Of a stretch of 7,078 nucleotides of DNA, positions 1 through 6,986 are shown piece by piece. A program made the translations under genes and the position numbers. The stretch is from Candidatus Brocadiaceae bacterium (GTDB lineage Bacteria; Planctomycetota; Brocadiia; SM23-32): positions 1-7,078 of the forward strand of contig PUNP01000813.1 of assembly GCA_003551785.1 (NCBI GenBank), in the 5' to 3' direction. The stretch's first letter is position 1, and each line of letters begins with the position of its first letter. The notes under the pieces were generated by a model that ran no database searches, was not told where the DNA came from, and was given only the letters and a program-made list of their open reading frames with translations.

Positions 1-16
1 AGGCCTTAAACTGCGG

Positions 17-151
17 TTTACCCTGCGGGCGCGTTCTCAGTGGCGCATCTGCGGCAAAAGTCTGCGCTTGCAGTATACGAATACAGCGGCGTTTGACATT
101 TGCCACATATGCACTACTGAAAACGCGTGAAATATGCAGGTTAGTGTCAAC
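17..151 (-). repeat. Structured hairpin repeat element, copy 1
   Basis: This is the left copy of a ~135-nt element whose inverted second copy lies at 5254-5387. Arms 30-62 and 95-127 pair over 33 positions with 27 Watson-Crick pairs, one G-T and five isolated mismatches. Inside them, 65-67/89-91, 70-71/86-87 and 73-76/81-84 can pair, with ACGA (77-80) as the terminal loop. Bases 67-95 match 5309-5337 exactly as the reverse complement (29 nt). Conserved flanks lie outside the hairpin: TTTRCCCTRCGGRC (17-30) and GTGARAWAWGCRGGTTA (127-143). The minus strand is assigned because three C/A mismatches (36/121, 44/113, 52/105) become G-U pairs only on that strand. The structure is seen directly; an RNA or single-stranded DNA role is inferred. 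I do not recognise the family. Confidence 0.8.
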
Positions 152-238
152 TGGCACCATACGTGACCACATTGACACTATCCGTGATAATGCCAATTGT
201 CACTTCACGCTATATGTTGTAGAGATGCCATTTGGCAC
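144..238. repeat. Three related 14-bp imperfect palindromes
   Basis: Three 14-mers resemble one palindromic consensus, GTGCCAATTGGCAC: GTGTCAACTGGCAC (144-157), ATGCCAATTGTCAC (190-203) and ATGCCATTTGGCAC (225-238). Start-to-start distances are 46 and 35 bp, so they are not a regular tandem array. An extra arm, TTGACACT (172-179), is the perfect inverse of AGTGTCAA (143-150). They could be binding sites for a dimeric DNA-binding protein, or decayed copies of a small palindromic repeat. No gene start lies close enough to choose between these. The first site overlaps the outer flank of the 135-nt element. Confidence 0.4.
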
Positions 239-3699: not shown

Positions 3700-5181
3700 A
3701 TGAACTTAAAATTAGCTGTAATAACCGATCTTCATTATTCTCATATAGACAACTCAGCCCTTCCACGGCGCAAAGGCCATCTGGCGGATGTTTTGCTGGA
3801 GAGAGCCGTACAACGCCTGAACAGGGCCATTAAACCTGACATCACTGTCTTCCTGGGCGATTTGCTCGATGACGGCGCCGCTGCAGACGCGCAAAATCTT
3901 CGTGAACAGCTCTGCCGGATAATGCTCAAACTCGACTCACACCTGCTTGTGCTGCCTGGCAATCATGACGGTAATATAGACGGTTTTTATCAGGACTTTC
4001 CCGAAGCTTCGCCCGTAACAGACATCAAAGGACACCGGCTGCTTACTTTTATCGACCCAGAAGCCCCCGGCTATAATGCTTACAGGAGAAGCTGCGACCT
4101 GGAAAAGATGCAGACTGCGTCAAAGGGATTTGACGGGCCTGTGATAAGCCTGCAGCATACTTCCCTGTTTCCACCGGGGGCGTCGGATTGCCCGTATAAT
4201 TATACTAATGTGGCTGAAGTGCTGGTCGCTATGAAAAACGCGGGCGTCAACATCTCGATGAGCGGTCATTACCATGATGGAGCCGGAATCATCAGAGATC
4301 AGGGGATGGAGTATATTTTGGCTCCCGCACTGTGTGAATCACCCTTTATATTCTATGAAATCGATATCGAAGATGGTCAAGCGCATTTGACTCCGCATCG
4401 GCTAAAACTTCCCGATAACAACAATATCATCGACTATCATGTCCATACACCTTATGCCTACTGCAGTAAGGGGATGTCCTTTGAGAAGTCGTTGGAGCTT
4501 GGCGAGGAATTCGGTTTGGAACAGTTAGTTTTTACGGAACATTCCGGCCACCTTTATTTTAATTCCAGAGATTATTGGGGCGGTGCTTATTGGGAAAAAG
4601 GGATGGCTTCCGCCTCAAAAAAAGATTCACGGATAGCAGATTTTCTCGTCAGTGTGCGCCAATTTTCACCACCAGCTAAAATTGGCCTGGAGGTCGATGC
4701 CTGCCAGTGGGGCAAAACTCTTTGGAATGAATGCGACCGCTCGCAAGTCGATATAGTCATAGGCGCGCTGCATACTATGCCTGAGGTGAAAAAAGAAGTT
4801 CCGGACAGTAAGGCGGCTGCTCAGCAGTTCATGGAGATACTTGGAAATTTCCTGCAGCAAGATATTGATATCCTTGCGCACCCTTTACGTATATTCCGGA
4901 AAGCCGGCATATATTTTGAGGATGAACTTTACCTGCCCACCGCTCAATTGCTGAAAAAGAATGATGTAGCAGCCGAAGTGAACTTCCATACCAATGAACC
5001 TGACAGCGATTTTATCCTGACATGCATTGAAAACGGCGTAAAACTGGCCTTTGGAAGCGATGCCCATGAGCCTTACGAAGTAGGAGAGTTTTTTTATCAC
5101 CTCCGTATGCTGGAAAATTGCGGCTGTCTGGGCCGGCTGGATGAGATTCTGTTCACTCCCGTGGAACGGAGTTCGATTTAA
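3700..5181 (+). CDS. Metallophosphoesterase-PHP fusion protein
   Basis: A 493-aa fusion of two unrelated metal-dependent phosphoesterases. The N-terminal half (~1-235) is calcineurin-like: DxH (10-12), GD...D (53-58), GNHD (87-90), H153 and GHYH (189-192). The C-terminal half (~240-490) is a PHP domain like histidinol-phosphatase: HVH (247-249), H281, E331, H358, H394 and DAH (454-456). Every expected metal ligand of both folds is present, so both sites are probably active. There is no export signal. ATG 3700 puts the DxH motif at residue 10, as is usual, and lies 13 nt after the upstream stop. A GTG at 3667 in the same frame would add 11 residues and overlap the upstream gene by 20 nt. Either start implies coupling with the GGDEF-HD-GYP gene. 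The substrate is unknown; a nucleotide or sugar phosphate is only a guess. Confidence 0.88.
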   Translation: MNLKLAVITDLHYSHIDNSALPRRKGHLADVLLERAVQRLNRAIKPDITVFLGDLLDDGAAADAQNLREQLCRIMLKLDSHLLVLPGNHDGNIDGFYQDFPEASPVTDIKGHRLLTFIDPEAPGYNAYRRSCDLEKMQTASKGFDGPVISLQHTSLFPPGASDCPYNYTNVAEVLVAMKNAGVNISMSGHYHDGAGIIRDQGMEYILAPALCESPFIFYEIDIEDGQAHLTPHRLKLPDNNNIIDYHVHTPYAYCSKGMSFEKSLELGEEFGLEQLVFTEHSGHLYFNSRDYWGGAYWEKGMASASKKDSRIADFLVSVRQFSPPAKIGLEVDACQWGKTLWNECDRSQVDIVIGALHTMPEVKKEVPDSKAAAQQFMEILGNFLQQDIDILAHPLRIFRKAGIYFEDELYLPTAQLLKKNDVAAEVNFHTNEPDSDFILTCIENGVKLAFGSDAHEPYEVGEFFYHLRMLENCGCLGRLDEILFTPVERSSI

Positions 5182-5253
5182 ACTTTGGTATTGTAACATT
5201 TGATTATCCCGAACATTTCATAAACTAACGACACAAAGATGGAAATTCATATT

Positions 5254-5387
5254 GTTCCCTTTAACCCGCTTTTCTCACAAGCCTCCAGTGGTGCAGATAC
5301 GCAGAAAGCAAACGCCGCTGTATTCGTATACTGCAAGTGCAGCTTTCTAAAGTAGATGCGCCGCTGGAGGCTTGTCCGTAGGGCAAA
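5254..5387 (+). repeat. Structured hairpin repeat element, copy 2
   Basis: This is the right, inverted copy of the element at 17-151, starting 72 nt after the stop of the fusion gene. Twelve perfect outer pairs (5277-5288 with 5364-5375) continue through G-T pairs at 5289/5363 and 5292/5360 to 5295/5357. A tandem G-A/A-G mismatch (5296-5297 with 5355-5356) and a small internal loop follow. Then GAAAGC (5304-5309) pairs with GCTTTC (5342-5347). The 32-nt tip is the same length as in copy 1 and carries GTAT-TCGT-ATAC (5320-5331). Imperfect pairs are G-U compatible on the + strand, so in the operon transcript this would form a long 3' hairpin. It lacks a U-tract. Confidence 0.8.
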
Positions 5388-5416
5388 GTGCCGTTTGTTA
5401 CAATCATTTTTCACTG

Positions 5417-5434
5417 TGGTAAAACGATTTACCA
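5417..5434. repeat. Small dyad upstream of the PHP gene
   Basis: TGGTAAA-ACGA-TTTACCA is a perfect 7-bp inverted repeat with a 4-nt loop, about 130 bp before the -35 of the next promoter. It could be an operator or a minor repeat. No T-tract follows, so it is not a classical terminator for the upstream operon. Confidence 0.4.
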
Positions 5435-5563
5435 TAAATTATTCCATTAACTGCAAATATTAAAGCCGTTTATCCTAATATGTGCCGTTACTTGGGCGGC
5501 CGTTATGGATTATTATTTTGGCCACCTAGCCTTACCGGTTGTGAGAAATTCGGGTTAATTGAG

Positions 5564-5636: not shown

Positions 5637-6986
5637 ATGAACACCAACGATCTTACGGCTAAATTGGACAGTTTTTGTGAAAAAGAGAGGTTTGCCGCGC
5701 TGCAAACTCTTATAGAAACGGAGTCTGAAAAAACTGAATCACCGGAAAAAGGGTGGATAAATATGCACTGCCATACCTTCTTCTCTTACAACGCCTATGG
5801 GTATTCTCCTGCGCACATAGCGTGGGAGGCACGCCGCCGCAAGCTGGACGCCGCCGGGATCGTCGATTTTGATTGTCTGGACGGCACAAAAGAGTTTCTG
5901 GAATGCGGAAGGATGCTCAAACTCAAAACCTGTGCCGGTTTCGAAACACGAGCCTACATTCCCGAATACAGTGATGTCGTGATTAATTCTCCTAAAGAAC
6001 CCGGTGTCTTCTATGTTGCCGGCACCGGATTCATCGCCCCGCCAACCGAGGGAACTAAAGCAGCCGATACGCTGAATTCTATGCGGCAGCGGGCTAAAAA
6101 CCGTAACATTATCATGATGGAGAAAATCAATGACTACCTGGGGAAAGACGCCGCTATCGACTATGAAAAAGATGTCATACCAAGAACACCGTCCGGAAAC
6201 GCCACTGAACGGCATATGCTGAGCGCATATGAGGGCAAAATGCGCAAAAATATACCCGACAGCGATAGGCGCGCAGCGTTCTGGGCCTCCAAATTAAATG
6301 AACCTGAAAGCGAGGTCAGCGACATAATAGATTCGCCGACACAGCTTAAAGGCCTTATAAGGAGAAAACTGATGAAATTCGGCGGTATCGGTTATGCAGA
6401 ACCCGATCCGAATTCATTTCCCGATCTCTCTGAAGCCATAGAGATGACGCTGGAATGCGGGGCTCTTCCCTCCGCCTGCTGGCTGGACGGGGCGAGTGAA
6501 GGTGAAAAAGATGCCGGTAAACATCTGAAATTCCTGCGGGATAAAGGGTGCCTCAGCGTAACCATTATACCGGACAGAAACTGGAATGTTGATGAAGGTG
6601 ATTATCAATGGAAAGTCGGTAAGCTCGATGAAATTGTCTCCGTCGGGAAACAGCTCGATATGATTGTGCTGGCCGGAACCGAGATGAACAAAAGCGGCAA
6701 TAAATTCGTGGATGATTTCAGTACATCCGCGCTCTCAAAACATCTTGAAACGTTTCGGAAGGGAGCATTTGCAAGTTGGGGCCATACTCTGCTGATGATG
6801 ACTGCCGGTATCGGGATTACCGGCAAATGGAGTCGCAGGCATTTCGGCGAGGACGTCGCCGGCCGTAATGAATTTTTCGTGCAAATTGGTTCCCAACAGT
6901 ATCCTGATGAAGACCAATTTAAAAAGTTAGGAGAATGGGGCTCACAGGGAACACCGGATGATTACATGAACATATTGGATACTTAA
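5637..6986 (+). CDS. PHP-family protein with altered metal motif, function unknown
   Basis: A 449-aa soluble protein. The PHP-type N-terminal motif HCH is at 44-46. The second motif reads V76-D-F-D79 where PHP enzymes usually have TDHD, so the expected His is Phe78. E103 (GFETR) fits the next ligand. Later conserved-looking segments are CWLDG (281-285), IPDRNWN (311-317), GTEMN (347-351), KFVDDF (356-361) and H383 (WGHT), which might complete a different metal site. The middle (~150-260) is charged and probably helical. It belongs to a different PHP branch from the neighbouring fusion protein. The start has no clear Shine-Dalgarno. The next in-frame Met is residue 43, directly at the HCH motif, so 5637 is preferred. 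Substrate and reaction are unknown. Confidence 0.85.
   Translation: MNTNDLTAKLDSFCEKERFAALQTLIETESEKTESPEKGWINMHCHTFFSYNAYGYSPAHIAWEARRRKLDAAGIVDFDCLDGTKEFLECGRMLKLKTCAGFETRAYIPEYSDVVINSPKEPGVFYVAGTGFIAPPTEGTKAADTLNSMRQRAKNRNIIMMEKINDYLGKDAAIDYEKDVIPRTPSGNATERHMLSAYEGKMRKNIPDSDRRAAFWASKLNEPESEVSDIIDSPTQLKGLIRRKLMKFGGIGYAEPDPNSFPDLSEAIEMTLECGALPSACWLDGASEGEKDAGKHLKFLRDKGCLSVTIIPDRNWNVDEGDYQWKVGKLDEIVSVGKQLDMIVLAGTEMNKSGNKFVDDFSTSALSKHLETFRKGAFASWGHTLLMMTAGIGITGKWSRRHFGEDVAGRNEFFVQIGSQQYPDEDQFKKLGEWGSQGTPDDYMNILDT

Follow-up and report, generated by a model that had tools for sequence, protein, structure and literature searches.

The two hairpins of the window (the whole stretch of 7,078 nucleotides analyzed here, from a Candidatus Brocadiaceae bacterium) are the inner parts of a short, non-coding, non-autonomous transposon, a miniature inverted-repeat transposable element (MITE), with IS1380-like ends. 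The unusual feature of this MITE is its strand-specific, covarying internal hairpin. MITEs are usually viewed as passive deletion derivatives, in which foldback is a by-product. We consider it likely that the present family is a non-autonomous MITE with IS1380-type ends, moved in trans, whose internal hairpin has been preserved as a folded bottom strand. The family itself was not found in the sources searched.

The Hairpins of the Window

An initial annotation, made from the window sequence alone, had described two inverted copies of a structured element whose outer stems differ in sequence and keep pairing. Two inverted copies, long hairpins, and genuine compensatory changes are confirmed. 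The apical 29-nt block at positions 67-95 is the reverse complement of 5309-5337 at 29 of 29 positions (chance of about 1e-10 in the window), and the long hairpin claimed for copy 1 is borne out at approximately 29-128. The fold of window 10-160 has a z-score of -5.1, and none of 200 shuffles was as stable. All five two-sided changes that had been listed are present between copy 1 and copy 2, namely GC to AT at 31/126, CG to AT at 32/125, and TA to CG at 34/123, 35/122, and 37/120. Pair 36/121 reads C/A in copy 1 and T/A in copy 2, as described; the supposed mismatch of copy 1 is a G.U wobble on the bottom strand. The minus strand of window 1-140, containing copy 1, folds with a z-score of -6.5, copy 2 folds better on its bottom strand (-56.9 versus -48.8), and the whole copy 2 element reaches a z-score of -7.7.

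Other parts of the annotation require revision. The unit is larger than the proposed 17-151, and that of copy 1 extends past the window start. The unpaired flanks are conserved, as had been noted, but the alignment of copies identifies them as terminal and sub-terminal parts of a transposon. In the same alignment the hairpin forms the 3' half of a longer transposon unit and does not constitute an independent RNA gene of 135 nt. The proposal of a non-coding RNA or folded single-stranded DNA under structural selection agrees with the many further copies and their strong covariation, which the annotation had predicted for a covariance search; it had not foreseen that the hairpin lies inside a MITE and that the conserved fold belongs to the opposite strand. 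The possibility of a known repeat, raised there as an objection, proved partly apt: the copies are numerous and keep their pairing, yet what they form is the interior of a MITE, and MITEs are a known kind of repeat. The family had not been recognized, and no Rfam family matches the hairpin.

Element Architecture

The unit starts with CCCGCATATTTCATAAACCAACG and finishes with ACGCGTGAAATATGCGGG or close variants, and beyond these ends the flanks vary among copies. Its size is approximately 245-290 bp, with terminal inverted repeats of 13-16 bp and target duplications of 4 bp, mostly YTAR-like. The hairpin unit is assigned to a MITE on account of its defined ends, differing flanks, exact 4-bp duplications, and high copy number. 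The window contains the following features:

1..140, plus strand: MITE copy 1, its 5' part lost at the window start (alignment with copies from two Brocadiaceae MAGs)
29..128, minus strand: internal hairpin of copy 1, conserved fold on the minus strand (folding and alignment)
128-140: 3' terminal inverted repeat of copy 1, TGAAATATGCAGG (copy alignment)
141..144: TTAG, presumed target-site duplication on the 3' side of copy 1 (position equivalent to the duplications of complete copies; partner outside the window)
5208..5233, plus strand: lone 5' end of another family element, CCCGAACATTTCATAAACTAACGACA, preceded by TTAT and adjoining copy 2
5261..5264: TTAA, target-site duplication left of copy 2
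5265..5554, minus strand: MITE copy 2, complete, 290 bp, of another subfamily (inverted repeat; same outer stem as L181, L183, L185, and L215)
5265-5280 and 5539-5554: terminal repeats of copy 2
5277..5375, plus strand: internal hairpin of copy 2, conserved fold on the window plus strand
5555..5558: TTAA, target-site duplication right of copy 2

Copy 1 is 94% identical over 137 nt to a copy on contig C120 of the MAG PUMZ01 (hereafter G001). A motif scan found no 3' end for the lone 5' end at 5208..5233. Coding capacity is lacking, as only 1 of 108 frame-by-copy tests (18 copies, six frames) was open throughout. Among 38 complete copies, the two terminal repeats agree better within a copy than between copies (11.58 versus 11.07 of 13 positions; 0 of 5000 shuffles). 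Short derivatives without the full hairpin also exist (L046, L047, L053, and L112), and L047 carries an exact duplication.

Several copies have acquired additional sequence. GC-rich palindromes of approximately 19-30 nt (CCTGCCTGCAGCAGGCAGG and variants) occur at different places inside L003, L005, L033, L035, L038, L040, L042, and L071, and may themselves be mobile. In L045, L059, L068, and L089, A/T-rich segments split the hairpin tip or stand in its place, as if hairpin tips served as insertion targets; the segments in L045 and L059 contain CCTACTTTTTT and, further on, AAAAAAGTAGG.

Distribution and Copy Number

A 20-base probe from the hairpin tip matched 11 contigs, all in the Candidatus Brocadiaceae MAGs G001 and PWZK01 (G002). 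With copy 1 as DNA query, 53 matches were obtained in G001 and 55 in G002 with 40 candidates scored per genome; such counts are rough, given that 40 or 150 candidates were scored per genome and that both strands of one hairpin can appear. This distribution suggests that the window derives from a close relative of the two MAGs. The 5'-end pattern of the MITE, with up to three mismatches, occurs at 105 places in G001 and 125 in G002, truncated copies included, and a reversed control pattern occurs at none. A model search added one diverged copy in a third genome, G007, and a fourth genome, G008, has three 5'-end matches, one of them with its hairpin split by an insert. Under stricter filters, a class-wide model search matched 3 of 75 genomes (G001, G002, and G007); the G008 copy L089, whose tip is split by an insert, was missed by the model search. 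Two deleted hairpin copies, L218 (G002, contig C271) and L225 (G001, contig C4), are identical; either the site is orthologous or the two bins share sequence.

No Rfam family scored above its gathering score for the window, and one complete copy, searched at E up to 10, gave a single chance-level match. A plasmid search gave no match. In IMG/VR, an exact 20-mer was absent and a 16-mer gave 12 matches, a number that we guess to be near chance. In the literature, no such MITE family appears in the titles or abstract beginnings among the matches listed, a coverage from which subscription journals are mostly absent.

Covariation and Strand Asymmetry

Three sets of copies were compared. The first alignment has 29 rows, comprising 28 aligned from 86 non-redundant matches (which include antisense self-matches, truncated copies, and inserted copies) and L009 with hand-set coordinates. 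A hold-out set consists of 25 loci from model matches (5 plus 20 newly fetched), 24 of which, all but L230, have a near-full match; all 24 were counted, 23 of them distinct owing to the identity of L218 and L225. An alignment of 47 rows leaves out L220 and L231-L234 (inserts) as well as L218 and L225 and includes the G007 copy. For whole elements, 18 complete copies of 231-246 bp were aligned.

Across the 47 hairpins, 95.1% of 1387 pair cells are paired, the cells not being independent since the copies are related. Two-sided changes affect 18 of 30 pairs and 140 cells, compared with 10.8 pairs and 50.5 cells after shuffling; slid controls, which keep the relatedness of the copies, never exceeded 9 pairs or 29 cells. 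The consensus fold clearly belongs to one strand. For the 29 copies, aligned regardless of structure, it scores -36.0 on the bottom strand versus -3.4 on the top, and 28 of the 29 single copies agree; the corresponding alifold values for the 47 copies are -31.5 and -1.7. In the hold-out set, single folds are better on the bottom strand in 20 of 24 copies, better on the top in 3, and equal in 1. Whole elements behave likewise (alifold -59.0 on the bottom strand versus -23.3), with all 18 copies folding better on the bottom strand, where the terminal repeats close the whole-element fold. The diverged G007 copy keeps the fold and shows double changes in the tip stem.

The wobble pairs reveal the same asymmetry. 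C/A mismatches of the top strand correspond to G.U on the bottom strand, where pairs alternate among UA, UG, and CG and the A.C state is rare. In the 47 copies there are 179 G.T and 25 A.C cells, with a choice of pairs that allowed G.U and thereby favors G.T counts; a separate register-wide count gave 115 versus 13. The held-out copies have 93 G.T and 20 A.C cells (96 versus 32 register-wide). On a parsimony tree, 25 changes led from Watson-Crick pairs to G.T and 7 to A.C. A control at paired sites showed no mutational strand bias (39 changes for C>T plus A>G, 40 for T>C plus G>A), and unpaired sites gave 11 and 15, respectively. On internal branches, G.T and A.C arose 9 and 0 times (9 and 1 over all register positions), and on terminal branches 16 and 7 times (p = 0.09; 17 and 10 over all register positions, p = 0.25). 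Without two outlier rows, the counts of G.T and A.C are 17 versus 6 and 11 versus 1. A bias stronger on internal branches is expected if source elements are constrained while dead copies drift, although the numbers are small.

Matched stem changes mainly on one strand suggest that the folding of a single strand is important to the element. The folded bottom strand, as RNA or single-stranded DNA, was probably under selection in source elements, as judged from these substitution patterns. The folds do not discriminate between RNA and single-stranded DNA, since the energy parameters for both favor the bottom strand, in 42 and 43 of the 47 copies, respectively.

Target Duplications and the Candidate Transposase

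The 38 complete copies span 59-477 bp, 27 of them 231-289 bp long. An exact 4-bp duplication flanks 18 of the 38 and is lacking in the other 20; in 1000 re-pairings the mean was 2.1 and the maximum 7, and eight shifted registers gave 0. Exact duplications occur in 16 of the 27 copies of 231-289 bp versus 2 of the 11 copies of other sizes (Fisher p = 0.03, with size classes chosen post hoc), which hints weakly at a role of the interior in movement. In mechanical gene calls, an open frame stops exactly at the duplication at 11 of 75 sites, where it may mark a former stop codon or a truncated gene.

Searches with the ends of the MITE led to the IS1380 family (NF033539, PF13701). The combined end motif matched 10 of 392 genomes across the phylum, most with one match, and one of these matches led to a 1664-bp element in G062, identified as IS1380 by NF033539. 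An independent search for the transposase covered 294 genomes, of which 17 matched at 1e-60, and 26 IS1380 loci were collected. CCCG-type ends of the same sequence class as those of the MITE, on both sides and with readable flanks, were present at 8 of the 26 (L190, L191, L192, L197, L202, L208, L211, and L213). Five of these eight are flanked by exact YTAR-type 4-bp duplications (CTAG three times, CTAA, and TTAA), and three, including that of G062 (CTAG/CTGA), have no matching duplication. Locus L196 has a 5-bp duplication, and 5-bp repeats are given for IS1247 of the IS1380 family in a table of PMC3281130. In G118, the left end of an IS1380 element, CTAA followed by CCCGCATTATTCATGAACCAGC, equals the 5' end of the MITE at 18 of 22 positions; its right end could not be located within the sequence fetched. 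These planctomycetal IS1380 elements differ from the MITE in containing a transposase (approximately 1.4-1.7 kb) and in having no hairpin at the one start viewed by eye (G008).

The IS1380 transposase (PF13701) was found in neither G001 nor G002, draft MAGs in which absence is weak evidence, and G008 has a transposase fragment (the gene start) behind CTAA and CCCGAAAATCTCACAA. The MITE is called IS1380-type by its ends, and is not a proven IS1380 derivative, because only this fragment was found in G008 and no such transposase in G001 or G002. From the likeness of ends and duplications, IS1380 is most likely the driver of MITE movement; we infer mobilization by its transposase. Another candidate, PF01609, is represented by one gene in G001, of IS1634 type, and MITE-like ends are absent from its 3.3-kb locus.

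Proposed Mechanism and Alternative Explanations

In the proposed mechanism, an IS1380-family DDE transposase would act in trans and recognize CCCGCATATTTCA-type ends, inserting the element at YTAR-like, mostly intergenic sites with duplication of 4 bp. Between the ends, a non-coding hairpin of approximately 100 nt would be preserved in source copies as a folded bottom strand, its paired positions changing together and its one-sided changes passing mostly through G.U on that strand. The hairpin may act in a transcript and not in the form of single-stranded DNA; its likeliest role would be that of a stable stretch of read-through RNA, RNase-resistant or RNase-processed, which would aid persistence or copying of the element. 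A bolder version, offered tentatively, holds that the bottom strand encodes a functional structured RNA, in which the terminal repeats close the hairpin and which is needed for propagation or persistence; a DNA transposon would then have evolved under RNA-structure selection, with wobbles maintaining the stem in RNA and sparing the DNA a perfect palindrome, which is unstable.

The hairpin could instead be the leftover palindrome of an ordinary MITE, its matched changes arising from copying between arms, by template switching or subfamily recombination, with no selection on a folded strand. The near-perfect Watson-Crick outer stems, in new sequence, of the outliers copy 2 and L009 are what arm copying predicts, and the short derivatives, with the exact duplication of L047, also fit. 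Arm copying, however, removes wobbles, yet G.T exceeds A.C about seven-fold on one strand only, the excess recurs in the held-out copies, and it is present without mutational strand bias; the higher duplication rate of the 231-289 bp copies, in post hoc classes, likewise speaks against this explanation, which we regard as rather unlikely. Recombination through a folded bottom strand, as in an integron attC-like or IS200/IS605/REP-like substrate, would follow the known logic of attC sites and fits the better DNA fold of the bottom strand in most copies. The family nevertheless has 4-bp target duplications and terminal inverted repeats, which to our knowledge neither attC nor IS200/IS605/REP-like systems produce together; its ends are IS1380-like, and its copies are dispersed rather than arranged in cassette arrays. 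Such a substrate is very improbable.

Single copies might also be of use to host genes as signals in the 3' UTR, for termination, or for processing, a role proposed for ERIC and Correia elements. Among 46 neighbor pairs within 300 nt, convergent pairs outnumber divergent ones (16 versus 8), and two papers report processing by RNase III or RNase E for the transcripts of known MITEs (PMC10969869; PMC2229807). Within 300 nt, however, mechanical gene calls at 75 sites give 35 genes reading into the top strand and 30 into the bottom strand, and no orientation bias of the element relative to neighboring genes was seen, which argues against host use of single copies and for constraint on the copies that multiply. 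Moreover, it is on shared branches that the strand bias of substitutions is most pronounced, and not on private ones, and no U-run was seen by eye after the hairpin on either strand. A host-level role thus appears improbable, and a MITE moved in trans with a preserved bottom-strand fold is favored.

Comparison With Known Small Repeats

According to PMC10969869 and PMC2229807, Correia/NEMIS, ERIC, RUP, and QMITE elements resemble this MITE in being short, non-coding or nearly so, and intergenic, with terminal repeats and transcripts predicted to fold. Unlike them, it folds through a hairpin that lies internally, close to one end, and that shows compensatory changes and a wobble bias toward one strand in dozens of copies; the term "covariation" is absent from PMC10969869 and "compensat-" from PMC2229807. 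REP/BIME sequences are likewise palindromes in high copy, but measure 20-40 bp according to the abstract of PMC3733652, compared with approximately 245 bp, terminal repeats, and duplications for this MITE. Its dozens of diverged copies provide a natural data set for asking whether selection on RNA or single-stranded DNA structure can act on non-autonomous transposons. They also counsel caution: a covarying hairpin in metagenomic sequence can belong to the interior of a transposon, and a test of the strand should precede any call of a non-coding RNA.

Other Sequence Around the Copies

Further repeats are scattered through the window. Another dispersed repeat occupies positions 1160-1265 and matches L001/L160 in inverted orientation with 93% identity; by eye, it is bounded at both places by inverted GGCCGAAAAG-like ends, which are short, and it is possibly another MITE. 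Directly after copy 1, positions 142-241 are 80% identical to L005:6304-6404, and a word running from GTGCCA to TTGACACTA, like the start of this segment, also lies beside another MITE copy (L070). The 43 nt at 422-465 are another small repeat, with 88% identity to L011/L020/L184 (one G001 site). As for genes, 3700-5178 encodes a metallophosphoesterase-PHP protein (PF00149 over the cut-off, PHP slightly under), within which 4951-5102 has a 71% match to L025/L173 of G002, presumably a gene relative. A 449-aa protein without a Pfam match is encoded at 5637-6983, and downstream of its gene begins another, whose start resembles that of ClpB.
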